A stretch of DNA of 64,000 nucleotides from Paenibacillus sp. RC334. GTDB lineage: Bacteria > Bacillota > Bacilli > Paenibacillales > Paenibacillaceae. A program made the translations under genes and the position numbers. The stretch is from positions 4,154,001 through 4,218,000 of the forward strand of contig NZ_CP125370.1 of the NCBI RefSeq assembly GCF_030034735.1, given 5' to 3'. Below, piece by piece: positions 34,401 to 51,661 of this stretch. The notes beneath the pieces are model-generated. The model was not told where the DNA came from and did no database searches. It saw only the letters and a list, made by a program, of their open reading frames with translations. The first letter of the stretch is position 1. The number at the start of each line of letters is the position of its first letter.

Positions 34401-35177
34401 CTAATCCACAATCATCCGTCCGGCTCCGCCGCCTTGCCAACGCCCTGCTGTACGTTTCCCCCGTCCAGCGCCTTCCAGAATAAGAACCAACTGTCTGTGT
34501 AGCTGTACCTGGGAATAGTCTCTGTATTCCGCACCGCTTCGGTTTGCAATGTAATGCTGGATTGATTCTCTGTCCACGGCTTCCAGGTTCAGGCACATGA
34601 GCGCAAACATACAATCCATCGGATCGGTTGCGCCACTTTTAAGCAGCTCGGATGCAAAATACCGCATCGTTTCCGGGCGCAATGTACTTTGATGCAAGCC
34701 TGCAAAGGGAGCATGGATATCGCTCCATGTATTGAATTCGGTAGCCATATCAGCAAAATCCTGATAATCCGAGCGAAGCACGGCTCCATCTTTGAGCTTA
34801 AACCTGCCCAGCTCCAGTTCATCCAGACCCAGCTCTGGCTCATCCTCCAGCACAATATCCGCATGATGAACAGTGAAATCCGGTCGATCCGTTTGTTCCA
34901 TAAATAGCAGCTTCAACACCGACAGCCGCCCCATAGCCTTATATGGTACTTCCTGCTCTTGCTCCAGCAGGTACAGCCTGCCCTTGTGCTTTACAATGCC
35001 TCTGCCAATGGTCAGCGTGTGCTCCCCGACAGTGACGTTCATCCCGGTAATAATGCCATCCGAATAATCCTGATACCGGATATCCAGAAAACTGCGAGGA
35101 TAATCTCGCAGATTTTCCAGCATCTCGGTTTTAAGAATACGGCCTTTCTCAAACTTCGGAACGATATGGGTTAACAT
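34401..35177 (-). CDS. Baseplate/tail-fibre-like protein, last gene of the contractile-like cluster
   Basis: AAAGGAGGG precedes ATG 35177. The 258 residues begin LTHIVPKFEKGRILKTEML; the segment GIITGMNVTVGEHTLTIGRG with IVKHKGRLYLL resembles the pattern of phage baseplate or fibre-attachment proteins, in which a strand-rich domain sets out a value and its origin. The middle (ELGRFKLKDGAVLR) and the C-terminal part (LRPETMRYFASELLKSG) are unlike anything I can name. The tail is Gly/Arg-rich. Assignment to a baseplate role is inference from pattern and position. Confidence 0.5.
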   Translation of the reverse strand: MLTHIVPKFEKGRILKTEMLENLRDYPRSFLDIRYQDYSDGIITGMNVTVGEHTLTIGRGIVKHKGRLYLLEQEQEVPYKAMGRLSVLKLLFMEQTDRPDFTVHHADIVLEDEPELGLDELELGRFKLKDGAVLRSDYQDFADMATEFNTWSDIHAPFAGLHQSTLRPETMRYFASELLKSGATDPMDCMFALMCLNLEAVDRESIQHYIANRSGAEYRDYSQVQLHRQLVLILEGAGRGKRTAGRWQGGGAGRMIVD

Positions 35178-35190
35178 GGTTTCCCTCCTT

Positions 35191-35346
35191 TCACAATTCT
35201 TCTTTATTCAGGGGAACAGACAGCCGATTCACACCGGGCGCAGGAGGTGGAACAGTAACTCCATCATCGGTGGGCTGAGCTTTACTTCCTCCGAGTAATC
35301 CAGTAAACAGGCGAAAATTCTTTTCTAAAAATCTGCGTATATCCAT
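35191..35346 (-). CDS. Small protein of the contractile-like cluster, 51 aa
   Basis: ATG 35346 follows CAGGGGGAG at close spacing, and the stop at 35191 lies 13 bases before the next start. The product begins MDIRRFLEKNFRLFTGLLGG and ends in a proline-rich, polar tail. No family known. The tight coupling to its neighbour suggests a true gene, perhaps a small linker or membrane-associated piece. Confidence 0.6.
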   Translation of the reverse strand: MDIRRFLEKNFRLFTGLLGGSKAQPTDDGVTVPPPAPGVNRLSVPLNKEEL

Positions 35347-35406
35347 CGTGCTCCCCCTGATTGAAAACTGCGATTCATTAGGATTTTAAGATCTATTTAT
35401 CTACCT

Positions 35407-35920
35407 TTACAGCCCGGCTCCCCGCTCGGCCTGCTCACGCAGGATATGATTCAGCTCGCGTTTATCCACGACGTAGGTACGAGCGATCAGATCGTGAAGG
35501 GCTTGTTTTCTAGCTGTAAAGGCTGTCATGATAAAGCCGATGCACAGAATGATAGCGGATATAAACTTACTCCAATGGCGGGCACTGGCACGTCCAAAGC
35601 TGAGCCTCTGGTTAAACTCATCTACCACGACGATCCCGAGAGCCAGCTTGCCCACCGAGGCTTTGCATTTGGAAGATTCCATAATCGCGTGATACAGCCA
35701 CAGCGCACCCCAATTAAGCAAAGTCTGTCCAACCATCTTTATGGTAAAAATAGGGGGCGATCCGTCTGTGAGTAAAGAGGTTTCCACCGAAGAAGACCCC
35801 CCAGTCCCCAATGGCTTGAATCACAAACCAGATCAGACCCAGAATCATAAACACGAACCACATCAACAGATTGTCAATAATACTCGCCAAAACCCGTTTC
35901 CAAAAACCTGCGTATAACAT
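35407..35920 (-). pseudogene. RDD family membrane protein, frameshifted
   Basis: Frame one gives GFWKRVLASIIDNLLMW (RDD box with R and D) from ATG 35920; frame two gives KASVGKLALGIVVVDEFNQR, SFGRASARHWSK and LHDLIARTYVV, all typical RDD parts. The two meet at a four-C run (35806-35809, forward strand); three C's would read AIGTGGSSSVETS and restore one protein of about 170 residues with three helices. RDD proteins are membrane components of unclear role. Both an assembly error and a true mutation are possible. Confidence 0.8.
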
Positions 35921-36024
35921 ACTATATCCTCCATATATTGTATTTTTATTCCACGGTGTCTCCTGGTATTTCGCACTTCATAGTGTCTTCGTATCGCGCT
36001 GTATGCTGCCTCTGTTGGCCTGTC

Positions 36025-38676
36025 CTACTTCGTACCGTCAAAGAAATCCAGCTCGGAGAGATCGTTTTCGAAGGCAAAAAAGCGTTTGGGTCCCAGATGC
36101 AGCAATTCATCCCGGCGGGTAACCGGCACCACATAAAAGCCCCAACGGCTGTCGCCTGCAAAAACAAAATATTTCGTCTCACCGTTGCGAATAGAGTCGG
36201 TATCATCCTGCGGAATATCCCGCCCGTACAGCACGGCGATTTCCTCATATGGCATCGGCTCAAAGGCTTCTGGCCGACTGCGGTACACATGGCGCTGACG
36301 CAGCTTGCCACCGTTCGCCGTCAGGAAAAATTCCACCTCGGCCGCATGGGACGGCCTGGAAATAGAGCCGCGCACGCGGTTGCTTTCCAAGCTCGCAATC
36401 AGCTCCTTCTCGCGCCCCGTATGCGTCCATGCGCTGACGGTGTACGGAATAGCTGGAATATGATTGGTAATGACAGGCTCAATCGTGCCCATTTTTTTGG
36501 CGTTCAAGTAACGGATAGCGCCGCGCAGACAGGCCATTTTCAGCTCGGGCACCCGACTCAGGTCCTCCGCCTTCTGACGGAACTCAATACTGCGCCCCGG
36601 CACAAATTCCTTGAGTGCCTCACGGAACACATCAATTCGGCAGGACTGCCCGGTCAGCTTGATAATCGAGTAATCCTGCAAGCGCCCCTCCTGATAAAAA
36701 TCATCCAGAAACTTACGCACAATATTATAGATATCCGCCTTGAGAAGCTGCTGTATTTCACGGATATTGAACACTACATCAGGCAATCCATATTCATCAC
36801 GAAAACGTCCATTTTCGATGACTGAAACCAGCCAACGATCCATCACGGCAATGTTCAGATCGCTTTCAGATGAAAATACCTGCTCTGATTCGAAGCGGCT
36901 GCGCAGGATGCCTGTGCGTAAGAAAAATTCCTTTTTCATATTTTCCGCCGCGCTCCACAGCAGATGAAAATTGCTTAGCACCCGCTGATATTCATCCCGT
37001 GTGGCATGCTCGTACTGCTTGAATGCCGTAGGCAAGATGGCCTCTGCCTCTCGATAACGTTCCTCCAGTCCGGCATACACAGCATCTACGCCAAACTCAT
37101 CCACATGGCGGTACAAATCCCCTGAAGGAATGCCGATCAAGGCATCAATATCAGTGTCAGGCAATCGCGTTTCCGCAGCATAATAGCCTGCAAACACAAT
37201 TTTCATGAACTGCATAATCCGATACGTCAGATTGTTTCCGCCAAAATTGGTATCCCCATTTTCATACGTGGTGTGGATATCCAGCTTATAGGCAATACGT
37301 CCATCCTCAATGCGAAATCGGCAGGATGATAAATCCGTTGTACCTCCACCACAATCGATCACAAGAGCCTGATATTCCTCACCATCCGCAAACGTCCCTC
37401 GTTCCATCTGGTCTGCCAGTGTATTGTACAGCACAGCCAGCCCTTCATCCAGTGCATCCTCTGCTTCAATCCGATAATCCGGTAAAATATCGCTAAACAT
37501 CTCGATAAACTGAGGCTGCAGCTTGACGGGTGCTGAAAAATGAAGGTTACGAAACCGGCACTTGAATTGCTGCTCGGCTGTGGCAATCACATAGCGTATA
37601 AAAGCCGCCAGAATTTCGCTGCGGAAAGCAGTCGCCGTATTCCCCTCGGAATCCATTAATTCCTCGGTTCGCTTATAGTCGTTGACCCAGCGCTTGATAC
37701 CCCGTAGTACTGTCGCCCGGCTGCCCGCTACATCCGTTCCACGCAGTGCTTCCTCTCCGAATACATATACGATATGCTCCGGGTTAGAGCAGTCCGCGAC
37801 ACGAATGGCGGTCGGCAACACTTCGATCCAATCCCCCTCCGCTCCCTCCGGGCCGGGGAAGGACACATAGTTGATCGCGTTTAGCCGTACCGTGCTGCTC
37901 ATGCCCGCATCCGGGGCAGTAACATAGGAACTATCCAGATATGCGCCTGCCGTGGTGTTCGAGGTGCCAAAATCAACCGCCAATACTGCATCTGTCGTTT
38001 CAGTACCGCGAATGATCAGCTCTGCCACCGGAATACGTTGGCCTTGAAGCTTCAATGGCAGCATCGGCTTATCTCCATAGTAGAGGTTATAAAAATATTC
38101 CGATTCCTGTCTTCGCAAAAACAGCAGACTGTAATTATGGTTGGTCGTCTCCCGCAGTTCAGCGTCGAGATGGCGGGAAAGGTAATATACGCCTGTCCGC
38201 CCCTCGTCCTTCACCAAATTCAAAATACCGCACAGGTCGCCTACCGCATTCACCAGCAGCACATTAGACGCATTCAGCCAGGGCAAGTCGGATTCAATCC
38301 GGTAATTGTCCATTCGACCTGTACGCACACCCTGATACAGCGTGATTTTGGCGGGAACCCGGATACCGCCGCTCTCCTGCCGTCGATCATTCCAATTTTG
38401 CCGCAGTGCCGATTCGATGCGCTCGAAGCCGCCGGGGTTGGGCCGTGTGATGAGCAGGTGCTCCTCTGCACTCCGAAACCGCAGAATCACACGGATCAGT
38501 TCCTCACGTGCCAGACGATTAGCAAAGCCCTCGACCAGCCGCTCCTTATCGCATATTCCGCGCAACTGAAAGGTTGTCATTTGCTCTAGCTCCGCCCGCG
38601 TGTATTTCGCCGTGAAGCGAATACCTTTTCGATCGGTGAGCGGGTCAAGCAGTCTGTATGTATAGGGTCCGTTCAT
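36025..38676 (-). CDS. Large Hsp70/actin-fold ATPase of the contractile-like cluster, 883 aa
   Basis: Residues about 1-245 are an unrecognised domain. Then comes an Hsp70-like nucleotide-binding fold: phosphate 1 loop AVDFGTSNTT (near 260), phosphate 2 loop ALVIDCGGGTTDLS (near 470), and the adenosine loop IIKLTGQSCRIDVFREALKE (near 690). A C-terminal domain of about 150 residues replaces the usual peptide-binding domain. The intact nucleotide motifs suggest an active ATPase. Together with the DnaJ gene upstream it may form a dedicated chaperone pair acting on the cluster's own complex. Confidence 0.85.
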   Translation of the reverse strand: MNGPYTYRLLDPLTDRKGIRFTAKYTRAELEQMTTFQLRGICDKERLVEGFANRLAREELIRVILRFRSAEEHLLITRPNPGGFERIESALRQNWNDRRQESGGIRVPAKITLYQGVRTGRMDNYRIESDLPWLNASNVLLVNAVGDLCGILNLVKDEGRTGVYYLSRHLDAELRETTNHNYSLLFLRRQESEYFYNLYYGDKPMLPLKLQGQRIPVAELIIRGTETTDAVLAVDFGTSNTTAGAYLDSSYVTAPDAGMSSTVRLNAINYVSFPGPEGAEGDWIEVLPTAIRVADCSNPEHIVYVFGEEALRGTDVAGSRATVLRGIKRWVNDYKRTEELMDSEGNTATAFRSEILAAFIRYVIATAEQQFKCRFRNLHFSAPVKLQPQFIEMFSDILPDYRIEAEDALDEGLAVLYNTLADQMERGTFADGEEYQALVIDCGGGTTDLSSCRFRIEDGRIAYKLDIHTTYENGDTNFGGNNLTYRIMQFMKIVFAGYYAAETRLPDTDIDALIGIPSGDLYRHVDEFGVDAVYAGLEERYREAEAILPTAFKQYEHATRDEYQRVLSNFHLLWSAAENMKKEFFLRTGILRSRFESEQVFSSESDLNIAVMDRWLVSVIENGRFRDEYGLPDVVFNIREIQQLLKADIYNIVRKFLDDFYQEGRLQDYSIIKLTGQSCRIDVFREALKEFVPGRSIEFRQKAEDLSRVPELKMACLRGAIRYLNAKKMGTIEPVITNHIPAIPYTVSAWTHTGREKELIASLESNRVRGSISRPSHAAEVEFFLTANGGKLRQRHVYRSRPEAFEPMPYEEIAVLYGRDIPQDDTDSIRNGETKYFVFAGDSRWGFYVVPVTRRDELLHLGPKRFFAFENDLSELDFFDGTK

Positions 38677-38707
38677 CGTTCACATGTCCTTTCTCTGCCA
38701 TTTGGCC

Positions 38708-39403
38708 TTAATAGAGGGCAATAGCGTCTATTTTCATCGTCGGGTCTGCCTCCAAAATACCGAAATGACGTGTCCAATACAGCTCAATCGTAAAACGCGC
38801 CGGAAGAAACAGATCCAGAATTAAATCTGCTTTGGTCCGTGATAACTGCGTTTCCTCCTGACCGATATAGATGAGCAATTCGTCCTTTTCCTCACAATTG
38901 GTATAAATGATCGAGCGGTGAAAAACACGGCGCATCGTTTCTTTTAGCAGATGTACAGCTTCCCCCGTCTCATACAGCCGCAGCAATCCTTCGGCAATCG
39001 CATCCTGCTCATCACGGTTTAACTGTACAAAGCTTTCGCTCACCTTCGGGCCAAAAATGCCGTTCCCGATGTCACGCTGAACAAACCGGATATGGTACTC
39101 CCGCCGATTCATGCCCTGATACAAATCCGTTTCGGCCAGAAAATGTATCATAATATCGAACAGCGATTCTCTCAGCTCCAGGTACTCCTCAGCATCCGGC
39201 GGAAACAGGTCCCGAAAAATAGAATAAAAGCGGTAGTATGGATTGATTTCCACCACCTGCTCCAGCTCGGATGTATTCAGCTCGGTCAGACTCAGCTCCA
39301 TATACGGGGAGTAGCTAACAGCGGGTACAAACCGGAAGCTGTTAACATCTAACTCCTGTTCCTTTGCGCGCATAAGCAAATCCCAGACGTAATTCACAGC
39401 CAT
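38708..39403 (-). CDS. Unknown protein of the contractile-like cluster, 231 aa
   Basis: Begins MAVNYVWDLLMRAKEQELDV; overlaps the end of the preceding gene by 10 bases (39394-39403), so it is translationally coupled. The protein is soluble and rich in aromatic residues, with INPYYRFYSIFRDLFPPDAE in the middle and FTIELYWTRHFGILEAD near the end. It is not any family I can name. Position and coupling suggest a structural partner of the 439-aa protein, perhaps baseplate. Confidence 0.65.
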   Translation of the reverse strand: MAVNYVWDLLMRAKEQELDVNSFRFVPAVSYSPYMELSLTELNTSELEQVVEINPYYRFYSIFRDLFPPDAEEYLELRESLFDIMIHFLAETDLYQGMNRREYHIRFVQRDIGNGIFGPKVSESFVQLNRDEQDAIAEGLLRLYETGEAVHLLKETMRRVFHRSIIYTNCEEKDELLIYIGQEETQLSRTKADLILDLFLPARFTIELYWTRHFGILEADPTMKIDAIALY

Positions 39404-40713
39404 TCTCCTTCACACTTGTACTCCGGGAAATACATTTGCACTTCCGACACCAGAAAGCTCATCAAGTCGGATAAAATGTATGCAGGAAATGTTGACGAAG
39501 CTTCCGCAGAACCGTGTCTGAACCCCAATCGCATGATCTGCTTGCCTTCCTCCGTCCGCACGTTGTCACTGACAAACGGATTTAACGGATACGTCTGGGA
39601 TTTGGATAAAAGCTTGCTCACATCATTTCTGCCTGTGCCTCCCCAAATGTCCACACGCTCCAATTCCAATCCCTGTGCAGCTTCAAAAGAATGTACAATG
39701 CGCGTAATCTCCGCTTTGGCTCGAACGATCACAGCCTGTTTGCCTGCATAGCGGCCCAAAAAGCTGTCCTGCCGCCGATTGGACAACACCGGATAGGTCT
39801 GACGACTAAGCCGCGTTGGGACGGGCTTCGTAACCTTCAACACATTCCATTCGCCGGACTTATCACGTGGCGTGACAATCGTCAGTTCCTCTTCCGTGCG
39901 TTTGATATACCGGATATCGCCTTCCACTCCGTCAATCAGGTAGCCGTGCTCAGGTCCTGTTTTACTTAAAGGAAGCACATGCTCATAGTTCACATGATCT
40001 ATAGCTGGTATTGGGAAACCACTGTTTTTCAGAGACAGTCGTTCAATGTTCCAAAGTGGAAAAACATCCACCTTCTTAAAAACGTCGAATTCCTCCAATG
40101 AGATCGTAATTTCGTGGATTTCCTCATCAGCGTCAGGCTCGCCTTCTCCTCCAACCAGTACACAATCGACAAATTTATAAGCGTACGGGTGATTAATCGT
40201 TTTCCACGGCATGCCATTTTGCATGAACATCAGATACAGCTTCTCAATCTCTAAAATATAAGAACGGTTGTGTTCCAGACGAAAACGAATCGGATAGCTT
40301 CCGGTTTCCGTTACCAATGTTCCCCCGAAAACCCGTTTGCTGCGTACAAGCGCGGTGATCTGCTCGGTCTCCATCTCCAGAAAAAGAGTAAACAACGGCA
40401 ACGCTCCGCCTTCCCGAACGACCTCTGCCACACGGCTGATATCCATCACCTTGTCCTTGGTATCTGTCGGCAACACCGGAAATAAAAATTCATGAATCGG
40501 ATCATAGTCCTCACGTGATGTCAATGACACGTACACGTCAAACTTCTCTTCCGTATTCTCAATTTCCTCAAATACCCGCCGTTCCAGCTGGCGGGTCATT
40601 TCTTCCTGATATTCGACGAGGTTCATAAACACCCCCGCCATCATATTTTTAAGCAAACGTCTCTGCTCCAAATCGTCCATCTTGCTCAAACGGTCCTGCA
40701 CCAGCTCTTTCAC
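39394..40713 (-). CDS. Unknown protein of the contractile-like cluster, 439 aa
   Basis: Starts with a helical, charged segment (ELVQDRLSKMDDLEQRRLLK) followed by beta-rich sequence. No signal, membrane helix or catalytic motif is seen. The protein is conserved in style with other cluster parts (many aromatic and acidic residues). The length and coupling to the following gene are compatible with a baseplate wedge component such as the TssF or gp6 type, but I see no motif that proves it. Confidence 0.65.
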   Translation of the reverse strand: MKELVQDRLSKMDDLEQRRLLKNMMAGVFMNLVEYQEEMTRQLERRVFEEIENTEEKFDVYVSLTSREDYDPIHEFLFPVLPTDTKDKVMDISRVAEVVREGGALPLFTLFLEMETEQITALVRSKRVFGGTLVTETGSYPIRFRLEHNRSYILEIEKLYLMFMQNGMPWKTINHPYAYKFVDCVLVGGEGEPDADEEIHEITISLEEFDVFKKVDVFPLWNIERLSLKNSGFPIPAIDHVNYEHVLPLSKTGPEHGYLIDGVEGDIRYIKRTEEELTIVTPRDKSGEWNVLKVTKPVPTRLSRQTYPVLSNRRQDSFLGRYAGKQAVIVRAKAEITRIVHSFEAAQGLELERVDIWGGTGRNDVSKLLSKSQTYPLNPFVSDNVRTEEGKQIMRLGFRHGSAEASSTFPAYILSDLMSFLVSEVQMYFPEYKCEGEWL

Positions 40714-40760
40714 GACGCCTCACTCCTTTCCGGCTCCAGCATTCATTGAACATGAAAACC

Positions 40761-42659
40761 TCAATTCCCGTTCGCAGCCGCCTGATCCTTGCTGCCTGAA
40801 TCAGACGTACCTGCTTCTTTGGAAGTGGAATCAGCAGTTCCTTTCTCCTTGTTGACAACTGCCTTCGTCGAAGAAGCATTTCCATCACTCGTACTGCCGT
40901 TCTTTGTAGCTGATGAAGCTTCCTTCTTCGCGTCCGCTGTACCCCCTGAACTCGTTGTCGCAGCATTACCCGTAGCTGTCGCAGCCTTGGTTTGCGATGT
41001 TGTAGCAGCTGGCGCAGCAGCCGAAGCCGCAGCTTCGTCCGCTACGTCCCCGGTGCCTGTATCGTTCAGCGCTCCGTCAGATAGTGACGCTCCATCAGCA
41101 AGCTGACCATTTTTCTGCTGGTCCGCGCTCTGTTTCTCCTCTGCCTTCGCAATACTTCGCTCCAATGCCAGCACACTTTCTAGCTTGCCGATTTCCTGAT
41201 AAATCTCCTGTGCCCCGCTATAAGCGTCAATGGCTCCTTCATAATCGAGGTCCTTCATCAGCCGATCCCCTCTGGCCTGAAGCTTGCCAGCCTGAATTTC
41301 CTTGAGCTGCTGCTGGATGGCCGTCATTTTATCATTAGTCTCGGTAATCTTTTTCTCCAACTCTTTTTGCGCAGATGTATAACCGGATTCCATCGCAGCT
41401 TTATTCGCCTTCGTATACAGCTTGAGCGCACTCGCGTAATCTCCGCCCTGAAATTTCAAATCTCCGTCCTTCATCCAGCTCGCCGTCTCGGCATAGCTGT
41501 CCAGCTGGTCGATTTTTTTCTCAATATCCTTCACATTGAAAGGCGGGTACAGACCGGCACTTTTCCTCGCTTTATCGTAGCTCGCTTCGGCTTTGGCAAA
41601 GTCTGCTTTTTCCACATATCCGTCTCCGTCAACCATGAGTTGAGATACTTTCTGCTCTGCCGTATACAGTCGCTTGTGAATCTTATCGTTAATTTTAACT
41701 GCCGCGTTTTTCGCTTCACTGTAGGACTTGAGCGCCTTCGCATAATCTCCTGCCCTGGCGTAATCATCCGCGGCCTGAGCCGATTCGACCATCGTTTCCA
41801 ACGCAGCCGCCTTGTTCGCAGCCATACGGGCCAGGGTAATCCATGCTCCTCCGCCTACAATCACAAAAGCGAGCAACGCAATCAAAATCCGTTTGATCAG
41901 CTTGCGGCGGTTCTTAGGCTTTTCCTGAAAAATTTTGTTCACATAGATGGCGGCAGCCGTATAATTGTTCACCGCCCGACGCTGCTTGCTCAGCAGAACC
42001 TCTTCCAGCGTATCCGTCAGCACGACCGGGTCCTTTGCTTCCTCCAGCGCACCCAGCATTTCCGCCAGTTCAACATCTTCCCACATCCCGGATGTGGCAA
42101 GCAGCATTACATCTCCATCTGCAAGCTGCGTCTTTTTGGCATAATGGGCATGAACTCCATTCGGATTTCCCAGGTATTCCAGCAGATTGCCCCGTTCCTC
42201 ATGCGTGCTGGTCGCTTCGTCGGGAATACGTCCGTCATCCGCCAATGACTGAGCCAAGCTATGATCCTTACTGCGAAAATTAAGCCGTCCATTGCGAAAA
42301 TGATACAGCCTCACATTACCGCACGAAACATATACCATTTTGTTGTAGTTGGTCACCACTATGAGCAGACTGGCCTTGAGCCGCACACGGCGGCTTTCGA
42401 ATTGCAGCCAATCCTGCGCTTCACGCAGGTCTCTCATCAGGCGCCGCTTGGACATGGAAGGCTTCTCCATGAAGTTTTCCAGTACCGTTTTGACAACCAT
42501 TTCCGCGCTGCGCAGCTCCTGATCCGAATCCAGACCGTCTGCGAGGACATAACAGGCCATGTCGTCCGTCTCCATGAATGCAAAATAGTCCCGGTTGTCT
42601 ATGTAAGAGCCCGCTTCCGACACAAAGGCGGTACTAAAATCGCTGTTGTCCTTGCGCAT
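40761..42659 (-). CDS. PP2C-type phosphatase-like membrane protein with repeat tail, 632 aa
   Basis: Residues 1-245 are PP2C-like (NRDYFAFMETDD, VLADGLDSDQELRSAEMVVK, ASLLIVVTNYNKMVYVSCGN, LLATSGMWEDVEL), but several canonical metal aspartates are altered (ADGLDS for ADGMGG, SGMWE for SDGLW), so it may be a pseudo-phosphatase. A transmembrane helix follows (ALLAFVIVGGGAWITLA, about 262-282). The outer part has three to four TPR-like YAKALKSYSEAKNAA and FAKAEASYDKARKSA repeats, then a low-complexity Ala/Ser/Thr tail of about 100 residues. It links an inner phosphoprotein domain to the cell surface. Confidence 0.8.
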   Translation of the reverse strand: MRKDNSDFSTAFVSEAGSYIDNRDYFAFMETDDMACYVLADGLDSDQELRSAEMVVKTVLENFMEKPSMSKRRLMRDLREAQDWLQFESRRVRLKASLLIVVTNYNKMVYVSCGNVRLYHFRNGRLNFRSKDHSLAQSLADDGRIPDEATSTHEERGNLLEYLGNPNGVHAHYAKKTQLADGDVMLLATSGMWEDVELAEMLGALEEAKDPVVLTDTLEEVLLSKQRRAVNNYTAAAIYVNKIFQEKPKNRRKLIKRILIALLAFVIVGGGAWITLARMAANKAAALETMVESAQAADDYARAGDYAKALKSYSEAKNAAVKINDKIHKRLYTAEQKVSQLMVDGDGYVEKADFAKAEASYDKARKSAGLYPPFNVKDIEKKIDQLDSYAETASWMKDGDLKFQGGDYASALKLYTKANKAAMESGYTSAQKELEKKITETNDKMTAIQQQLKEIQAGKLQARGDRLMKDLDYEGAIDAYSGAQEIYQEIGKLESVLALERSIAKAEEKQSADQQKNGQLADGASLSDGALNDTGTGDVADEAAASAAAPAATTSQTKAATATGNAATTSSGGTADAKKEASSATKNGSTSDGNASSTKAVVNKEKGTADSTSKEAGTSDSGSKDQAAANGN

Positions 42660-42681
42660 CGCTACCCCCGTCTTTCTGGTT

Positions 42682-43512
42682 TCATCCTATCGCCAACATA
42701 ACCACTGTCGCGTTATCCTGACTTTTAAAGCCTTTATCATTAATCGTATCGATCATCGCTTCCGCCATTTCCTGCGGTGCTCCACCCTTGCGCATGATCT
42801 CTTCCAGCTCAATCTCAGTCAGTGCCTCCTGAATGCCATCGCTGCACAACAGCACATGATCGCCTGCGTACAGGCGAATCGGTGCCGCACCAAGCTCCAT
42901 GCTCTCAAAGCCCTCATAGCCCAAATAATTGACCAATTGATTGCGAACCGGACTCGTTTTGGCCTCTTCCGAGGTCATTTGCCCAGCCAGCACGCGTTCC
43001 TCCAGCAAGGTTTCCGCCGTATGCTTGGAATTAACATTCTGAAAATGACCATTGCGGTAAATCGTAATCAGGCTATCGCCCACCGCTCCGTAATACAACT
43101 GATAGCCACAAATAATGACCGCCGCCAGCGTCGTTCCTCCACCCTGCCCATTCAAATTTTGCAAAATACCGCGATTGCTCTGAGTTGCCGCTTCTGCAAA
43201 ATAACCGTTCAGGTTCGACGCATCCTCCAGTTTGACGAACGCCTTCGTAAAGGTTGTCACCGCTAACGTACTGGACATGCGCCCATTAGCCAGTCCGCTG
43301 ATGCCGTCTGCGACAACCGCCAGCGTACCGACAGTTGTCGTCATACTTGCAAAATAATCATCCTGCTCGCTTCGGCTCCCGATCGTTTGACCATTTCCGA
43401 TCTCAATTCCACTCACGGTACGGCTGCCGGGACTTCGCGTCAGCCGCATGCGGATCATGAGAAGAACAGCGAATAGCACCGCAGCTCCGCATACAACAAA
43501 ATAAGGCTGCAT
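42682..43512 (-). CDS. PP2C-type Ser/Thr phosphatase with N-terminal membrane anchor, 276 aa
   Basis: ATG 43512 follows GGGAGGTAACGAA; the longer reading to 43578 overlaps the previous gene without a better site. A membrane helix occupies about residues 3-20 (FVVCGAAVLFAVLLM). The PP2C domain keeps RSEQDDYF, LAVVADGISGLANG, TTLAAVIICGYQLYYGAVGDS, LLCSDGIQEAL and SQDNATVVML, with the metal aspartates in place, so it is probably active. In T6SS clusters the PppA phosphatase reverses kinase action on the FHA protein; a like role is inferred. Confidence 0.88.
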   Translation of the reverse strand: MQPYFVVCGAAVLFAVLLMIRMRLTRSPGSRTVSGIEIGNGQTIGSRSEQDDYFASMTTTVGTLAVVADGISGLANGRMSSTLAVTTFTKAFVKLEDASNLNGYFAEAATQSNRGILQNLNGQGGGTTLAAVIICGYQLYYGAVGDSLITIYRNGHFQNVNSKHTAETLLEERVLAGQMTSEEAKTSPVRNQLVNYLGYEGFESMELGAAPIRLYAGDHVLLCSDGIQEALTEIELEEIMRKGGAPQEMAEAMIDTINDKGFKSQDNATVVMLAIG

Positions 43513-43546
43513 TTCGTTACCTCCCTGCACCATGCCCACTTCCGTC

Positions 43547-44074
43547 CTAGTTTTCGTTGTCCCACTCAAAATGGGCACCGCACAGCGGGATAAAGATAAA
43601 TTTGCTATGTCCCAGCTGAATCACGTCATAAGCAGCCAGCTCTGCTGGTGAATATACTGCCTCGTTATTGTGATACGCCAAGCCTGACGAATCCCCCGGC
43701 AGCAAGTAGAAATTACGCTTCTTCGGATCATACACAATGACCGCATGATTTCTGCGGGAAATCGTGTTGTCCCCAATAATACGGACATGCATTTCCTCGG
43801 CGCGTCCAATAAAGTTTTTCTCGGCCATAATGCGGTAGTCCTGACCCACCTGCGCTCCTTCGATGCATACCAGCCACCCGGTTACCGGGTGAATCCCCAC
43901 AGTCTCGCCCAAATACGGCATCGTTCTGTCATCGTCTCCCGCACCGTTGGTTTTTGCCGTTGGTTCAACACTTTTGGGTGCGGCTACATTTACCACCGTA
44001 TTACAATAAGGACACGTATTTCCATGCTTTCGTGTACTGAACATGTGTCCGTTCGGGCATCTTGTCAAACTCAT
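43547..44074 (-). CDS. Zinc-ribbon plus FHA domain protein, 175 aa
   Basis: The N-terminus has a zinc ribbon, CPNGHMFSTRKHGNTCPYC, with two CxxxH/CxxC-like half-knuckles. The FHA domain (about 88-165) has FIGRAEEMHVRIIGDNTISR and RNHAVIVYDPK, where the GR, S/R and NH residues that grip phosphothreonine are present. FHA proteins bind phosphothreonine peptides and organise complexes; in H1-T6SS this role belongs to Fha1. The protein is cytosolic and 40 bases downstream of the membrane FHA gene. Confidence 0.9.
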   Translation of the reverse strand: MSLTRCPNGHMFSTRKHGNTCPYCNTVVNVAAPKSVEPTAKTNGAGDDDRTMPYLGETVGIHPVTGWLVCIEGAQVGQDYRIMAEKNFIGRAEEMHVRIIGDNTISRRNHAVIVYDPKKRNFYLLPGDSSGLAYHNNEAVYSPAELAAYDVIQLGHSKFIFIPLCGAHFEWDNEN

Positions 44075-44113
44075 AATCGGTTCCTTCCCCCATTGTCATG
44101 ATTGTCTTTTCAG

Positions 44114-44662
44114 CTATTTAACGAGCAGCCTCGTATTGGCAATATATAATAAATCACCTGAGTAAATCCGGTACGGCTCACCGCTTTCCAGCTTCTTGGT
44201 TACACTTTCGTTCGCAGGTCGCAACCCCGTACCATTGCCAGAATCCACATCCTCCACAAACCAGTCACTGTTCACCCGATTGAGGACTGCATGTTCCACG
44301 CTTACAAGAGATGCATAATCTGTGCCTGCCAAATCAATATCCGCCTCGGAGCGACCCGTTGTTTTGCCGATCAGGAGCGAAGTTTCGCCTTCGATATACC
44401 ATTCTTTAATGGACTCACCCTCTTCATCCATCAGTATCAGCTTGGCAATCCGATTGCGCTGTGTCTTTGGCTTCGCTACACGTTCAACTGACACCAGATT
44501 ACGCAATATGTATACAAGCACGCCGATTCCGATACCTATCACGACCACGGTTTTCAAACCGCTATAGCCTGTACGACTAAACATATAATAGGCGATCGCC
44601 AGCATCAGCCCGAACATGGCAACATCTATGATGAAAACCCATCTGTTCTGCGCCGTTTTCAC
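44114..44662 (-). CDS. Membrane protein with FHA domain, 182 aa
   Basis: Two hydrophobic segments (about 10-28 and 36-54) are followed by a cytosolic FHA-like domain with LLIGKTTGRSEADIDLAGTD, SVEHAVLNRVNSDWFVEDVD and NGTGLRPANE. The order (GK, S..H, NGT) is classic for FHA. A membrane-bound FHA could recruit phosphorylated cluster proteins to the membrane. Confidence 0.85.
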   Translation of the reverse strand: MKTAQNRWVFIIDVAMFGLMLAIAYYMFSRTGYSGLKTVVVIGIGIGVLVYILRNLVSVERVAKPKTQRNRIAKLILMDEEGESIKEWYIEGETSLLIGKTTGRSEADIDLAGTDYASLVSVEHAVLNRVNSDWFVEDVDSGNGTGLRPANESVTKKLESGEPYRIYSGDLLYIANTRLLVK

Positions 44663-44694
44663 TGCTTGCTTCCCCCGTTTCTATCCTGAAATCA

Positions 44695-45205
<511 letters not shown>

Positions 45206-45273
45206 GATCCACCCTACGCTTGCACGTGGAGTGAGTGTGTGTTCAAGCTGCGCTTAACGTCAGGACGTCAAGC

Positions 45274-45699
45274 TTAAACCGGATATCCGCCGTCGATGGT
45301 AGCCAGCTCGGTTTTGTCTTTCTTTTGTTTGATGAAGAGTGTAAACGCACCTACACCTTCTGTGTCGCCAAAGTGCTCGTTGTAGTCTACAACGAATGCA
45401 TTCGGGAAGTGGATTTTACGCACAACTTGGTCAGCTGCGATAACTTCCAGTGTTACTTTACGGTAGCTGTCTGCTTTTTCAGCAGGAACCAGGGACCACA
45501 AAGCCAGTTTCAGCGTGTCATCCGCGCTGTCGCCGTCTACGGCTGTGATAATTTTACCGCTGATGCGCAGCGTGGAGCCTACGTCAGTGGAACGTGCATT
45601 GGAGTCGTCCGGTGTATCGGTGTCATAAATAACCGTTTGGATGTTATCCAAGCCCAGCTCGATTGTTTCTTGTCCTTCAACTTTCAGTCTGAATCCCAT
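45274..45699 (-). CDS. Hcp/tail-tube-like protein, 141 aa
   Basis: AAGGAGG stands eight bases before ATG 45699 (MGFRLKVEGQETIELGLDN). The small, strand-rich protein with LKLALWSLVPAEKADSYRKV, then VRKIHFPNAFVVDYNEHF and AFTLFIKQKKD has the size and pattern of contractile tube proteins (Hcp, gp19 type). No membrane segment or signal is seen. It directly follows the sheath-like gene, as tube follows sheath in phages and T6SS (TssBC-Hcp). The very good ribosome binding site suggests high expression. Fold assignment is inferred, not proven. Confidence 0.6.
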   Translation of the reverse strand: MGFRLKVEGQETIELGLDNIQTVIYDTDTPDDSNARSTDVGSTLRISGKIITAVDGDSADDTLKLALWSLVPAEKADSYRKVTLEVIAADQVVRKIHFPNAFVVDYNEHFGDTEGVGAFTLFIKQKKDKTELATIDGGYPV

Positions 45700-45818
45700 G
45701 TGTGTTGCCTCCTTGAAATTAGGTAATATGATGGCGGGAGAAGCAGGGCTTCTCCGCAATTTATGTATAAAGGCAGTTCTGGATAGAATCGCCTCTAACA
45801 TCTTTCGTAGCGCTCGGA

Positions 45819-48044
45819 TCATGATTTGACCGAGCTGGTTCCTTTAGTAATCATGACTTCCAGGTTCTTCACATTGCCGTTGAAGACCAGATCGATATGG
45901 CACATATTGCTTTTCTCATCAATAATGAAGCTCATATCGTCTCCGTCCTGAATGATCGAGTTAACAGATCCTCTGCTGCCCAACCACTTGCTCTTTTGGC
46001 TGCTCGGATTGTTACTGAAGAAGCGGACGATATTTTCGTGCTTGAAGTCTCCTGTCTGGTAGCGCAAAATACGTTCAATGTACGTGCTGACCAGCGTCTT
46101 GTAGATGGAGTCAAAGCCGTCCTCAGACATCGCCATGCTTCTCGCCTTGTAGACGGTAATCCGGCGGATATCCTTATCCTGAATCTGAGCATTCTCGGAC
46201 GAGAACACAAAACCGAAGTTTTTACGGTTGATGGCATCCTTGATCGTGTTGGTGAACCCGGTGATTTCCTTGGCCATCGTCGTCACCGTGCGCAGACTGT
46301 TGTCTCCCGCTTCAATGTCAAAGCGTACGCCAGGGAAGTTTTTGTTGACCGTTTTGAATGTCTCACGCAGGTACTCAGGACACTGATAAGAAGCGACCAA
46401 ACCAGCGGCAACATAGGCTGCACCCACATAAACGCCTTCGATCCACAGCTTGAGAATATCCTCTTTCTCCTTGGAGAGCTCCACACCGCTTTCGGTCTGT
46501 AGCATTTTGCTGTCGATAATGACACCCGATTTGTCCTTCGGAATAATCGTGAAGTTCGGTACGCAAGGAATTGCAAATTCGCTGTATTCTCTGCGAACGA
46601 GACTGGCGCATTTATCGACATATTTATCGATGCCTGCTGTCGCCATACTGTTGAAAGTCGTTTCTTCACCGGATTCAAAATTAAAGAACATTTGAATTTT
46701 GTAATCCTTCACGACTTGCAGCAGCATCGAGAGCGATTCCATAGAATTTCCGCCCTGCTTAACGACCTTCTCGTTGCCTTTGAAGCGTTCACGTGAAACC
46801 TTCACCTTACCAGCTGCTTCCAGCTCGACGGATGGGACGATACCGAACCAGATCGTGTCGCTGAATTCATTTTTGGCATTCACGGTATTCAGGTATGTTT
46901 CCAGACGCGGGATATTGCTGCTTTTCACCAGCATGTCCAGCTTGTTATTTGCCACCAGCATGGTTGGTAACATACCTTTACTCTTCGTTGCATATTGATC
47001 GAAGAACATTTTGACACCGAGGATTTTTTCCACAAGCGGCTTAACCGCCTTTACGAAATCATCCTTGGCATTTTTATAGAACTCCAGATACGTGTTGTAG
47101 TTCTGAACTTCAACTGCTGTATCGACCTTGGTCTGAACAGCTGGCAGCGGCACAAACGTGCGCACCACCAAATCCTTCACATAGTCGGAAGGCGTATCCG
47201 TAATAGAGTTGTAATCTTCCTCGAACACCTGTGACAGATCGCCCGTGCTGTTCTCATCCAGCAGCATCAGCTCGGTGCTGTCACTCTTCGGTGCTTCAAT
47301 GATTTTCAGCTCGCCGCTTTCCCCAATGGAGAGCATACCCACCTGGATCAGCTCACCGGAGTTTTCCTCCTGGGCACCACCGAGCAAAAGGCGGGTTTTG
47401 ATATCCTCAATCGCCAATGGCAGCATCGCCATAACGTTGTTATAGTTCTGGCTTGCTTCCTCGAACATGCCATTCAGCTTGTCGCCCATGTCGAGTTTCT
47501 TCGGATCGCCATCATCCAGCTTGTCATATTCACCATACATATAGTGAATTTCTTTGCGGACTTGGCGAATATCGTCCATAACCTTTTTCGGAGAAATCAT
47601 GTCCAGCAGATTTTCAAACTTGAAATCTACGTTTGTGATTCCTTGACTACGCTTGGTGTCAATGAGCGTAAACAACATTTTCAGAAAATCATTACTTTGG
47701 TTCACACGAATTTCAGAAATGCTGTCCTCATCAATCCCTTCCGGCTTTTTGAGGGTATAGACCACTTTTTGATTAGCCGCGTTAAAAAACGAATACACAG
47801 TCGGCGAAAATTTATCCAAAAATTCGTCGAAGCTGCGCACCAGAAGGTGCTGGTTAATTTCCTTGATTTTCTCATCACTCAAGCTGTCAATGCCCTTCAC
47901 ATCACCTACAATTGTGATCAGGTCCAGCTTTTCCGGGTTGATTTCTTCAAAAAGCATTGTCCGGTTTGTTTGATAAATGATTTCCATCGCTGTCGGCAAA
48001 CGAATAAAGTATGGATATACGCCGAAAGCCCCATACACGGACAC
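45819..48044 (-). CDS. Sheath-like protein (TssB-TssC fusion-like), 741 aa
   Basis: The N-terminal 190 residues read LDLITIVGDVKGIDSLSDEK, SFDEFLDKFSPTVYSFF and VDFKFENLLDMISPKKVMDD, which follows the TssB pattern (LGDF, nfddvl, F-sLdDFsP). Residues 300-741 follow TssC-like order, with WIEGVYVGAAYVAAGLVASY and the C-terminal NRKNFGFVFSSENAQIQDKD, SIYKTLVSTYIERILRYQTG. GTG 48044 is the first possible start after a TAA, with no good ribosome binding site; ATG at 47987 (MEIIYQTNR) is another candidate. If right, it is one fused sheath chain of a contractile system. Confidence in the fold is moderate. Confidence 0.6.
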   Translation of the reverse strand: MSVYGAFGVYPYFIRLPTAMEIIYQTNRTMLFEEINPEKLDLITIVGDVKGIDSLSDEKIKEINQHLLVRSFDEFLDKFSPTVYSFFNAANQKVVYTLKKPEGIDEDSISEIRVNQSNDFLKMLFTLIDTKRSQGITNVDFKFENLLDMISPKKVMDDIRQVRKEIHYMYGEYDKLDDGDPKKLDMGDKLNGMFEEASQNYNNVMAMLPLAIEDIKTRLLLGGAQEENSGELIQVGMLSIGESGELKIIEAPKSDSTELMLLDENSTGDLSQVFEEDYNSITDTPSDYVKDLVVRTFVPLPAVQTKVDTAVEVQNYNTYLEFYKNAKDDFVKAVKPLVEKILGVKMFFDQYATKSKGMLPTMLVANNKLDMLVKSSNIPRLETYLNTVNAKNEFSDTIWFGIVPSVELEAAGKVKVSRERFKGNEKVVKQGGNSMESLSMLLQVVKDYKIQMFFNFESGEETTFNSMATAGIDKYVDKCASLVRREYSEFAIPCVPNFTIIPKDKSGVIIDSKMLQTESGVELSKEKEDILKLWIEGVYVGAAYVAAGLVASYQCPEYLRETFKTVNKNFPGVRFDIEAGDNSLRTVTTMAKEITGFTNTIKDAINRKNFGFVFSSENAQIQDKDIRRITVYKARSMAMSEDGFDSIYKTLVSTYIERILRYQTGDFKHENIVRFFSNNPSSQKSKWLGSRGSVNSIIQDGDDMSFIIDEKSNMCHIDLVFNGNVKNLEVMITKGTSSVKS

Positions 48045-48315
48045 GGGATGTCCAATTTAGAGCAGCCGGGTTTCCACGCTTAGTTCTTTTGCCTCCTCCC
48101 CCCCCTACATAACATTCAAATTGGCCAAAGGATTCGGCTCATACTGCATATGCAGTACAGGCATGTAACCTCGAAAATTAGTCCGAAGCGTTCATTTAAC
48201 TTTTAATTACAAAATTAACAAACGGAGATATGTTGTTCAGATAACAAGGAATATTGCGTTTCTGCTATTCCGTGATCCTACTGCTATCCCATTTTTTGCC
48301 GTTGATACGAGAGCT

Positions 48316-48345
48316 ATCATACAAAGTACCCGTTAGTTTTGTCAA
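48316..48345 (-). promoter_or_regulatory. Promoter of the contractile-like operon
   Basis: On the minus strand TTGACA (48345-48340), 18 bases, TATGAT (48321-48316). It lies about 270 bases upstream of the sheath-like gene and drives at least sheath and tube, then read-through to the rest. Confidence 0.65.
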
Positions 48346-48618
48346 TTTCTGTAGCCCCAGATTGAAACAGGGCAATTCGACTCATTTTATGCGTAAATAC
48401 GTAATTTTCATGATATGTTAGACCTGTTTATTCAGGGAATTATTCACAAATGGAACTCAATTGCCGATAGAAATCCATTGGATATATCTGTTAAGCGTAA
48501 AAGTATCAAATTCATGGCTAATGTGAGGGTTAACAGTCTGTTTTTATCCTTTATCCCTTATATCCCAAGGATTAGGAGAGTGGGCGCGCCCGCATTGGCC
48601 TCGTCGATGGAGGGGCTT

Positions 48619-50709
48619 ATGTTCAGAATGAGGAAATTGGGAATCATTTCTTTTATGACTTTTGTACTATTTTTTCAAATTGGCTCAAACGGGGTCATTG
48701 GGACTGTAAATCAGGCCAATGCCGTATCTTTGGGAACTGTTCCGGTCGAGGGTTATGATGCCGTTTTTGTATTGGATACCAGCTATTCCATGAGGGATAC
48801 CGATCCCGAGGGCATTGCGGCCGAAGTTATCAATATGTTTATGGATTTGAGTGATGCAGACCGTACACGCGTCGGATTCGTCGCTTACAACCATCATGTA
48901 GTCGCCTCGAAGTCGCTGACTTCTATTGCGGTAGCAGCGCAAAAATCACAAATTCAGCAGGAAATCAGAACGCTAAACCGTTCCGGTTATACAGATTTGG
49001 GACTTGGATTGCGTAAAGGCTCGGAACTGCTTTCCGCAGGGGCTTCTAAAGGACGTCAGCCTTTTATGATCCTGTTATCAGATGGAGAGACTGATTTTGG
49101 AGCCTCTTCCGGTTCCCGATCCAAAGGAGACTCAAGTAATGACGTGTCCTCCGTTATTAAATCTGCACAGACTAAAGGATACCCGGTGTATACGATTGGT
49201 CTGAATCATGACGGGACGGTGAACCGTCAGGAACTGGAGCGAATCGCTTCGCAAACGGGGGGAGCTTCTTTTATAACGAGCAGCGCCGAGGATCTGCCAG
49301 AAATATTAAACCGTATTTTCGCCAGCCAAATTCGTTCCAAGCTCGTTCCAGTCGCGGCGATTACAACCACTGGCGAAATGCAGGAATTAACCGTGGATAT
49401 ACCGGACTCTAGTATGGAAGAAGCCAATCTGGTACTTTTGTCGGAGCATCCTCTTCAGGAAACACAGCTCTATTCCAATTCAGAAAATGTCCGCAGGTAC
49501 AAATCGAGCCGATATGCAATTTTAAAAATTGAGCATCCACAGGCAGGCAAAGTAAAGCTGAAACTGAGGGGCATTCGCGGAGATTTGGTCAAAATCAATT
49601 TGCTTGGCAGCTATCGACTGGAAGCCGAGGCCACCATGACAGGAATTAAGGAAACACAAGCCACTGGAAACAAACCCGTGCAGCTACTTAAAGGACAAGC
49701 CATACCGTTCAAAGCTCAGTTGTTGCTGCCGGATGGTCAAAGGCTTACAGACGAAGCCATATATAAATCACTTCAAGCCCATATCATGGTTACACCCGTA
49801 AAGGGTGGTACAAGCAAAAAGGTACCTATGACCTACAAGTTGGGATTCTTTCAGGCCGAATACGCGTTCCCTCTAACGGGAGATTATACGTGGCAGCTGT
49901 CTTTGGACAGTCCGCAATGGTATCGCAAGGGAGCAGTCCATACCGTCCATGCAGCGAATGCTGCACCGCAGGCTTTAAAGGACCTGACGATTCGTCTGGT
50001 GAAGGAAGACGGGGATGCCCGCCGGAGTTTAAGCGAATTTTTTGCTGATCCTAATCATGACAAGCTCACCTATAAGCTGGATTCAGGAGCCTCCGGGGAT
50101 GCGGCGAATGCTGAGATTAACGACACAGATCTGCTGTTATCCGGGCTTCACACGGGCGACTCCGAGCTGAAAATTACCGCTACCGATTCGGAAGGAGCAT
50201 CCAGTAGCGCTACGCTGACCGTTTCCGTACAGTCCCGGTATACAGCCATCAAATGGACGGTAGCTGTCAGTATCGTAGTGGCGGCACTTCTGTACTGGTT
50301 CTTGCGGCCAAAACCGCAGTTTGCAGGAAGAATCGAAGGATATTTCCTCGCGACGGCAAGTGGACAGGAAATTCCGGTAAAATCCTGGCCGCTCACCTCC
50401 TTTCCGGGCCGGAGGGTTAGCTTACAGGAGTTGTTCCGTACGCTTGACGTTCACGAACCTCTGCCAGAAGCGGAGCGGATCATCTTTTCCGCGGGTAAAA
50501 AAGGGACTCTTGTAGCCAAACATGATACACGCTGCGCCTTGCAGCACGGGAAAGTCAGAATTACCCGCAATAAAAAGGCCGTGCTGGAGTACAGCGACAA
50601 GCTGTACATTACGTTCGAGGACGGTGTTACTGAAATCGAGCTGCGGTACAAGGCGATCAAGCCCAATACCTCCGTGTACACCGATCATATTCAAGCCCCA
50701 ACAGGATAA
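48619..50709 (+). CDS. VWA-domain membrane protein, divergent flank of the cluster, 696 aa
   Basis: I chose ATG 48619 (MFRMRKLGIISF), near GGAGGGG; an in-frame reading to 48415 lacks support. A signal peptide covers residues 1-36. The VWA domain (about 45-240) has the MIDAS residues DTSYSM, the threonine in SGYTDLG and SDGETD, so it can bind metal and ligand. A beta-rich part follows, then a single membrane helix WTVAVSIVVAALLYWFL (near 605) and a cytosolic C-terminal domain of about 90 residues. VWA domains occur in PpkA-type T6SS kinases; here the VWA is a separate protein next to the kinase. Confidence 0.88.
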   Translation: MFRMRKLGIISFMTFVLFFQIGSNGVIGTVNQANAVSLGTVPVEGYDAVFVLDTSYSMRDTDPEGIAAEVINMFMDLSDADRTRVGFVAYNHHVVASKSLTSIAVAAQKSQIQQEIRTLNRSGYTDLGLGLRKGSELLSAGASKGRQPFMILLSDGETDFGASSGSRSKGDSSNDVSSVIKSAQTKGYPVYTIGLNHDGTVNRQELERIASQTGGASFITSSAEDLPEILNRIFASQIRSKLVPVAAITTTGEMQELTVDIPDSSMEEANLVLLSEHPLQETQLYSNSENVRRYKSSRYAILKIEHPQAGKVKLKLRGIRGDLVKINLLGSYRLEAEATMTGIKETQATGNKPVQLLKGQAIPFKAQLLLPDGQRLTDEAIYKSLQAHIMVTPVKGGTSKKVPMTYKLGFFQAEYAFPLTGDYTWQLSLDSPQWYRKGAVHTVHAANAAPQALKDLTIRLVKEDGDARRSLSEFFADPNHDKLTYKLDSGASGDAANAEINDTDLLLSGLHTGDSELKITATDSEGASSSATLTVSVQSRYTAIKWTVAVSIVVAALLYWFLRPKPQFAGRIEGYFLATASGQEIPVKSWPLTSFPGRRVSLQELFRTLDVHEPLPEAERIIFSAGKKGTLVAKHDTRCALQHGKVRITRNKKAVLEYSDKLYITFEDGVTEIELRYKAIKPNTSVYTDHIQAPTG

Positions 50710-51661
50710 CGTACTTCGGAAACAAAAAAGGGAAGCGCCGTCTCTTACGATTAACGAACCGTAAGAGTTGGGCGCTTCCCTTTTTTATCCAATATTCCGC
50801 ACGCAGTGCGGCTTTAAACCATCTGAGCGAGCGGCAACGCTTGTTAGCCTGTACCTCCAGACCACGCCGAATCACATACGGCAGCAGGGAAAGACCTGCA
50901 TTTTCGATCTGAATCCGGTCAGCCTGATCTGCAAACAATCTGCCCGGCACATCCGGTGGAGGTGATCCTTTTCGGCAATAATACAGCGTGGCCGCCAGGC
51001 TGTAGATATCTGACACGGGTCCTTGCTGCGAGCGGTTAGAGTAGAACTCCAGCGGAGAGTAGCCCGCCGTGGTGAAAATCGGATGCTCTTTGCCTTCAAA
51101 ATGCACAGCCGATCCGAAATCAAGCAGCTTGATGTTGCCATTCCCCCCGATCATAATGTTGCCCGGCTTAATATCCCGATGAATAATGCCTTTATCATGA
51201 ATGTATTCCATGGCATCAATTAAAGGCAGCAGCGCATGGTACAAAAAAGCAGGATCGGATGTTGGAGCATCCTCTTCCTTCATCACCCTGTCCAGCGTCT
51301 TGCCGGCACAGTATTCCATGACCAGATAAGCGGTTCCATTTTCTTCGAAGTGATCTATATAACCGACAATACCCGGATGGCTTAATTCCTTGAGCATTTG
51401 CCCTTCACGCAAAAAATAATGCATAAACTCCACGTATTTGAATTGCATAGATGCACTGCAGGTCACCATTTTTCGATCCGATCCCCGCAAAGCGAGCGCA
51501 TTCGGAAAAAACTCCTTAACAATGACCTTTTCACGATTATCCAACAGCCTTGCCGTATACACGATGGCCAGCTCACTGCGGGACAAGGCGCTTCGAATTT
51601 GGTATGTATTTCGCAGCTTCGTATTGCGGGCAAGCAGATTCCCGCTTGTATCCACGATCAT
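50657..51661 (-). CDS. Ser/Thr protein kinase (Hanks type), 334 aa
   Basis: AGGAGG is seven bases before ATG 51661. The kinase domain is complete: VIVKEFFP (Lys, near 50), REGQMLKEL (Glu), HRDIKPGN (catalytic Asp, near 163), DFGSA and PLEF, up to about residue 285. The last 40 residues are encoded by the terminator hairpin and antisense to the VWA 3' end. With one A more in the A-run at 50781-50786 (T-run on the plus strand) it would stop as TLTVR inside the hairpin, so the tail is suspect. It has no membrane helix. It probably phosphorylates the FHA partners of the cluster. Confidence 0.88.
   Translation of the reverse strand: MIVDTSGNLLARNTKLRNTYQIRSALSRSELAIVYTARLLDNREKVIVKEFFPNALALRGSDRKMVTCSASMQFKYVEFMHYFLREGQMLKELSHPGIVGYIDHFEENGTAYLVMEYCAGKTLDRVMKEEDAPTSDPAFLYHALLPLIDAMEYIHDKGIIHRDIKPGNIMIGGNGNIKLLDFGSAVHFEGKEHPIFTTAGYSPLEFYSNRSQQGPVSDIYSLAATLYYCRKGSPPPDVPGRLFADQADRIQIENAGLSLLPYVIRRGLEVQANKRCRSLRWFKAALRAEYWIKKGSAQLLRFVNRKRRRFPFLFPKYVILLGLEYDRCTRRYWA
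50724..50787. terminator. Bidirectional terminator between the VWA and kinase genes
   Basis: AAAAAAGGGAAGCGCC pairs with GGCGCTTCCCTTTTTT, with an inner CTCTTACG/CGTAAGAG helix. T-runs occur on both strands. Confidence 0.9.

Follow-up and report, generated by a model that had tools for sequence, protein, structure and literature searches.

A conserved Paenibacillus operon as a candidate toxin-injecting contractile machine with a single-chain sheath

The locus and its structural proteins

The window analysed here is a stretch of 64,000 nucleotides of the Paenibacillus sp. RC334 genome, and all coordinates without a locus label refer to this whole stretch. Its minus strand carries an operon in which a protein of 741 amino acids (aa) with a predicted sheath fold is encoded together with phospho-signalling and chaperone genes; the window and the rest of the genome very probably encode between them a contractile machine that injects toxins. 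The genes listed by the first-pass annotation of this DNA were found as uninterrupted open reading frames where it had placed them, and most could be assigned with Pfam (17 window proteins scanned) or NCBIfam as follows.

34401..35177, minus strand: 258-aa protein, candidate baseplate or adaptor protein; in relatives the last core gene ahead of the VgrG cassette
35407..35811, minus strand: RDD gene (Pfam/NCBIfam)
36025..38676, minus strand: Hsp70/actin-like ATPase, 883 aa (PF00012, E = 0.0065, and DnaK models, all below cut-off; motifs DFGTSNTT and DCGGGTTD)
38708..39403, minus strand: u231, second baseplate candidate, 231 aa (putative role from position only)
39394..40713, minus strand: u439, candidate TssF/gp6-like baseplate wedge protein, 439 aa (predicted fold)
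40761..42659, minus strand: PP2C2, PP2C-like membrane protein with degenerate metal-binding motifs (NF033484, E = 3e-21, below its cut-off; membrane helix)
42682..43578, minus strand: PP2C1, PP2C phosphatase with intact motifs and one predicted membrane helix (PF13672, E = 3.8e-15; NF033484, E = 3.8e-37, below its cut-off)
43547..44074, minus strand: FHA protein 2, without a predicted membrane helix (PF00498, E = 8.3e-7)
44114..44662, minus strand: FHA protein 1, with two predicted N-terminal membrane helices (PF00498, E = 3.2e-8; hydropathy)
44695..45174, minus strand: DnaJ-domain protein, HPD intact (PF00226, E = 1.1e-26)
45274..45699, minus strand: Hcp-like tube protein, 141 aa (PF17642 TssD and profile search against PDB, both weak)
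45819..48044, minus strand: single-chain contractile sheath protein, 741 aa (predicted fold)
48415..50709, plus strand: VWA membrane protein, divergent gene (PF00092, E = 6.8e-22; weak Ig-like PF17963, E = 0.0044, below cut-off; helix at residues 612–630)
50657..51661, minus strand: Ser/Thr protein kinase, HRD and DFG intact (PF00069, E = 7e-34)

The structure predictions proposed by the first-pass annotation as its check, run for two of the four proteins it had named, returned a sheath fold for the 741-aa protein and TssF as the best match of u439. Whole sheaths of phages and contractile injection systems (CISs) align with the 741-aa model over residues ~20–725 and the VipA/VipB entries of the type VI secretion system (T6SS) over ~308–725, while residues ~119–300 form a large helical insert; the sheath protein expected of any CIS is present here by predicted fold. 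Since one chain aligns both to whole sheaths and to VipA/VipB, the earlier description of the sheath as fused is correct in that a single chain does the work of TssB and TssC. The Foldseek TM-scores were low (TMq 0.29 for this model and 0.26 for that of u439), and the main basis of the sheath argument, less so of the u439 argument, is the VIA alignment, with the chains of the matched structures identified from entry titles and chain lengths. The sequence itself matched no Pfam or NCBIfam family and three PHROGs at chance level only; in PDB, a stretch of NS1 (E 0.007, single sequence) and one of a metastasis suppressor (E 0.015, profile) were judged to be chance matches. The protein probably starts at 47987, giving 722 aa, because this is the length of many of the relatives listed.

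The 141-aa protein, which had been noticed for its Hcp-like size and its place next to the sheath, gave two independent weak sequence matches to Hcp. One is to PF17642 TssD (E = 6.8e-4, 19.9 bits, under the curated cut-off of 25.8) and the other, the sole match of the family profile in PDB, is to Hcp1 (6bdc, E = 0.0045); a single-sequence search of PDB returned no Hcp. These sub-threshold but mutually consistent matches, with the place of the gene beside that of the sheath, hint at an Hcp-like tube protein, as originally proposed. The predicted model of u439 similarly hints at a TssF-like baseplate protein, the likeness being one of fold only: the TssF family PF05947 had no match in the RC334 genome, with the E. 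coli control positive.

The 741-aa, 439-aa, 231-aa and 258-aa proteins had no credible Pfam match. Profile searches of PDB led from u439 to TOP7 (E 0.43) and from the 258-aa family to MsrA (E 0.013), neither of them credible, and from u231 to nothing. When family members of u231 and of the 258-aa protein were scanned with Pfam, single members only had matches, all at chance level and one of them to Gp7_helical (E 0.35); u231 itself had a single match at chance level. To the eye the N-terminus of the 258-aa protein has a tentative likeness to TssK; the fibre-like label given to this protein earlier was not upheld.

Conservation of the operon and its association with spike genes

Scanning GTDB genomes for the sheath gave 232 relatives, of which the best 80 (~78–100% identity) were kept, 65 of them with full flanks; among those kept, P. 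maysiensis and P. terrae supply the closest homologues (100% identity across the aligned region). The order sheath–Hcp–DnaJ–FHA1–FHA2–PP2C1–PP2C2–u439–u231–Hsp70 on one strand is conserved in 65 of the 65 full loci, so this arrangement is not due to chance. The Hcp-like gene adjoins the sheath gene in every one of them (median identity 85%; 78% for FHA protein 2 among relatives), and the kinase was matched in 60 and the VWA protein in 50 of the 65, the latter on the opposite strand every time.

In more distant loci (L098–L104) the order of the core genes varies. The kinase gene stands beside the sheath gene in L101 and L102, from genomes of other families, and L102 has homologues of VgrG, pentapeptide, 175-aa, DUF4280 and again VgrG genes within 8 kb of the sheath; in L099 the FHA and PP2C genes come after the 258-aa gene. 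In L103 and L104, both from one other family, no core genes besides those for the sheath and Hcp were recognised over the 20 kb read, and in L103 these two follow tryptophan biosynthesis genes. Two further distant loci, L096 (G380) and L097 (G248), each have a single cluster with genes for the sheath, Hcp, a VgrG-like protein, a member of the u231 family and an Hsp70-like protein. L097 also holds homologues of u439 and of the 258-aa protein and a DUF4280–AHH nuclease gene adjoining an Imm11 immunity-like gene, and its VgrG-like protein matches Phage_base_V (E 2.8e-10) and Phage_GPD (E 6.5e-6); in L096 neither u439 nor the 258-aa protein had a homologue by BLAST, and Pfam gave no DUF4280.

The first-pass annotation had remarked that VgrG was not visible, which holds for the window but not for the genome, where VgrG and PAAR-like (DUF4280) genes lie elsewhere, nor for the relatives read, where they directly follow the operon. 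We drew 197 genomes of RC334's own family (presumably Paenibacillaceae) evenly from a larger group and counted matches to this VgrG at E up to 1e-10; the sheath was found in 41 of them, DUF4280 in 66 and the VgrG in 42. All 41 sheath genomes carry VgrG, as against 1 of the 156 without a sheath (p = 1e-41, shared ancestry being ignored in this and the following p values), and all 41 carry DUF4280, as against 25 of the 156 others (p = 2.6e-25). The sheath gene and a DUF4280 gene share a contig and are 14.0–18.6 kb apart in 37 of the 41, the exceptions being RC334 itself (G000), G427, G439 and G489 (positions determined by hand). In a wider sample of 398 genomes of the phylum, where two sheath profiles returned the same 13 genomes from 8 labelled families, DUF4280 was present in 19 and both in 12, that is, in 12 of the 13 sheath genomes versus 7 of the 385 others (p = 2.3e-17).

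The only sheath-less genome of the family sample with VgrG, G521, retains part of the system. Its locus L140 (G521:C2:125000-144900) has matches to the kinase, VWA, PP2C1, PP2C2, u439, u231, Hsp70 and 258-aa proteins and none, within the 20 kb read, to the sheath, Hcp, DnaJ, FHA1 or FHA2, and the VgrG and DUF4280 genes are kept downstream (L134); judging from its gene content, it looks like a natural deletion. DUF4280 alone was rejected as a marker of the system: 25 genomes of the family carry it without the sheath, and since 24 of these 25 also lack the VgrG, DUF4280 has another use besides the sheath system. This second class of DUF4280 genes (L133, L135 and 22 more), in genomes with neither sheath nor VgrG, is mostly single-copy and high-scoring.

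Ten family loci (L123–L132), taken from the 37 genomes that have a DUF4280 gene close to the sheath, indicate how the spike genes are attached. In all ten, the 258-aa gene is succeeded within the operon by genes for VgrG, a pentapeptide-repeat protein, a member of the 175-aa family and DUF4280 (in L132 a single frame contains both the pentapeptide and the 175-aa portions), and a second VgrG-like gene follows further on in nine, whereas for the tenth, L124 (G513), it lies just beyond the edge. In RC334 this cassette is absent from the operon; 9 Phage_GPD matches (6 over cut-off) and 3 DUF4280 matches (all over cut-off) lie at separate places in the rest of the genome, so that a VgrG spike and a PAAR tip are present both in the genome itself and in the operons of relatives.

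Some of the RC334 VgrGs are fused to toxins and stand beside immunity genes, the recognisable pairs being a WHH/colicin DNase with SUKH (L118) and Tox-REase-3 with Imm7 (L120); L121 has a YwqJ deaminase match below cut-off, and the long VgrGs of L119, L122 and L117 have no Pfam domain at the C-terminal end. Up to column 700 of their alignment, the VgrGs of L119–L122 show 80–100% identity (mostly ~95%) in each block of 50 columns, and thereafter 17–45%, which, as far as sequence comparison goes, is the pattern of polymorphic toxins. Members of the 175-aa family (L116:9133-9666, L117:17135-17689 and L118:8956-9474) directly precede DUF4280 genes, and one (L097:8384-8953) stands just after a DUF4280 gene. 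Pfam classes the family as Imm11-like in L118 and L097, and its constant recurrence beside DUF4280 genes points to a spike adaptor or chaperone no less than to an immunity protein. After each of three VgrG-toxin genes at ~4.00–4.08 Mb of the RC334 genome there is also an element of ~8 kb (L120:9357-17370, L121:11590-19601, L122:9920-17937). Its copies are 88–89% identical to each other, and the one in L121 has integrase, portal, scaffold, major head and head-tail adaptor genes; this capsid-bearing mobile element may spread or diversify the toxin cassettes.

The proposed machine, its alternatives and known contractile systems

The sheath fold, the weak Hcp and TssF-like matches and the VgrG/PAAR-like partners support the original suggestion of a Gram-positive contractile machine. 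We propose that a cytoplasmic baseplate would carry the growing Hcp tube with the sheath assembling about it, and that VgrG and the DUF4280 protein, bearing C-terminal toxins, would cap the tube. The kinase/FHA/PP2C set may gate firing at the membrane, where the predicted helices of FHA1, PP2C1, PP2C2 and the VWA protein are possible anchors. On contraction, the VgrG–PAAR spike and the toxin at its C-terminal end would be driven into an adjacent bacterium. As a substitute for ClpV, the Hsp70/DnaJ pair might recycle or load parts. The targets are most likely other bacteria, because the toxins that can be recognised comprise nucleases and a deaminase, some of them beside immunity genes.

A toxin-injecting apparatus could also be a released particle of the extracellular contractile injection system (eCIS) or tailocin type, assembled in the cytoplasm, freed by lysis and fired from outside, which would differ from our proposal in the place of firing only. 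We consider this unlikely: the window proteins scanned with Pfam and PHROGs gave no match to an AAA+ ATPase, holin, endolysin or tail fibre (though a tape-measure protein may go unrecognised by such models), the kinase, FHA and PP2C genes come with membrane helices, and each genome has several VgrG loci, as T6SS genomes do. In addition, a survey of PAAR genes saw no eCIS genes near PAAR_H2 genes (PMC8651086). Firing from the membrane is probable. The first-pass annotation had left the choice between a new type and an intracellular device. The former stands to the extent that a name for this lineage of CIS was not found in the literature searched, whereas a cell-fate device like the Streptomyces CIS, the contraction of which acts on the producer and not on its neighbours, is improbable because VgrG, PAAR-like proteins and toxin/immunity pairs are present; the polymorphic C-termini, of which some carry toxin domains and are accompanied by immunity genes, fit conflict between strains better than self-signalling.

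The RC334 genome does encode two phage-type sheaths (PF04984), the first within a cluster that on inspection resembles PBSX and the second within a prophage that includes a portal gene, so the VgrG/PAAR genes might serve these two tails and the operon be an unrelated domesticated myophage tail. This is hardly credible, given that VgrG and the 741-aa sheath agree in 196 of the 197 genomes, that a search of 50,697 phage records gave no match to the 741-aa protein and a scan of IMG/VR viral contigs with two peptide patterns only gave no close relative of it, and that the eight window proteins compared with PHROGs found no informative match. Nor do we give much weight to a non-contractile scaffold or filament with a sheath fold. 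The large helical insert speaks for it and fold alone is no proof of contraction, but the Hcp-like, TssF-like, VgrG and PAAR-like partners and their close co-occurrence make it very improbable.

The toxin-injecting machine proposed here shares with the T6SS a putative Hcp-like tube, a spike of VgrG and PAAR-like proteins with fused toxins and accompanying immunity genes, multiple VgrG loci, a candidate TssF-like protein, the kinase/FHA/PP2C set and a pentapeptide protein in the spike cassette; the pentapeptide protein TvpB belongs to one class of T6SS VgrG–PAAR assembly complexes (PMC13373197). It differs in its Gram-positive host, in having one sheath chain instead of TssB and TssC, and apparently in Hsp70/DnaJ instead of ClpV, no ClpV-type gene being found among the 17 window proteins scanned, with no genome-wide search made. 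The TssM-related PF06761 had no match in the RC334 genome (E. coli control positive; TssJ and TssL models were not searched). The machine would work like a T6SS yet fails its definition, and we do not file it as one because of the one-chain sheath and the lack of a curated TssF or TssM-related match. With eCISs (Afp/PVC) and the Streptomyces CIS it has in common a single-chain sheath, by predicted fold, and a VgrG/PAAR-type spike, but the phospho-signalling set and the toxins fused to VgrG at separate loci set it apart; there is no AAA+ ATPase of the eCIS kind among the 17 proteins scanned with Pfam and no fibre match in the operon, and Pfam, PHROGs and NCBIfam scans gave no tape-measure protein, a kind that can escape models. 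R-type pyocins, diffocins and PBSX-type tails are different in that the spikes here bear toxins, and neither head, lysis nor fibre genes were matched among the window proteins scanned.

A precedent is formed by orphan PAAR_H2 (DUF4280) and Phage_GPD VgrG genes of Firmicutes. According to the 2021 survey, 70.8% of PAAR_H2 genes adjoin vgrG with no eCIS or T6SS genes around, and a system not yet known was speculated on (PMC8651086). The kinds of spike gene are the same here, the DUF4280 proteins of our loci being presumably of the H2 subtype, and the present locus adds a candidate machine for them. A 2016 paper connected DUF4280 with a possible phage-like translocation system in Gram-positive bacteria; the atypical Francisella T6SS with IglG shares the DUF4280 PAAR-like tip in a Gram-negative host and another machine (PMC5349215). 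A 2012 review counts firmicutes among the phyla with T6SS-delivered toxins (PMC3482391), the present machine not being among its passages seen. The open literature searched, which excludes preprints and most subscription journals so that prior art is possible, contained no description of this locus.

Contractile weapons of this contact-dependent kind are commonly viewed as a Gram-negative trait. We are inclined, with some reserve, to think that Gram-positive Bacillota possess a counterpart of the T6SS, anchored in the cell and dependent on contact, with a single-chain sheath, firing by Ser/Thr phosphorylation at the membrane, Hsp70/DnaJ recycling, wall crossing without TssJLM and exchangeable VgrG/PAAR toxins. 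If true, this would revise the Gram-negative-only view, and would raise the new questions of how the spike passes a thick wall and how the sheath is recycled without ClpV. The locus provides a concrete, conserved and testable candidate for the injection machine suspected in Gram-positive bacteria.

Accessory and neighbouring genes

The SDG and DN motifs of PP2C phosphatases bind metal. In PP2C2 the former is replaced by TSG and the latter is absent, for which reason this protein, judged by its motifs, is likely a pseudophosphatase; its tail is long, of low complexity and rich in Ala, Ser and Thr, with a single membrane helix.

The RDD gene, counted as a member of the operon by the first-pass annotation, was rejected as a part of the system: no RDD match was found in any of the 80 loci, although 44 extend past its place to the 258-aa gene, nor in the ten loci L123–L132, and from this absence in relatives it is probably an insertion. 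A clpP-type gene beside a sigma-70 family gene adjoins the operon (window 32655-34150). Both were likewise rejected as parts, with no homologue in the ten loci L123–L132; the count of 0/80 is uninformative for them, as most of the 80 loci end before these genes. A promoter scan upstream of the sheath gene gave 3 sites versus 1.9 expected by chance, which is uninformative as well. Many database copies of u439 are labelled 'normocyte-binding protein'.

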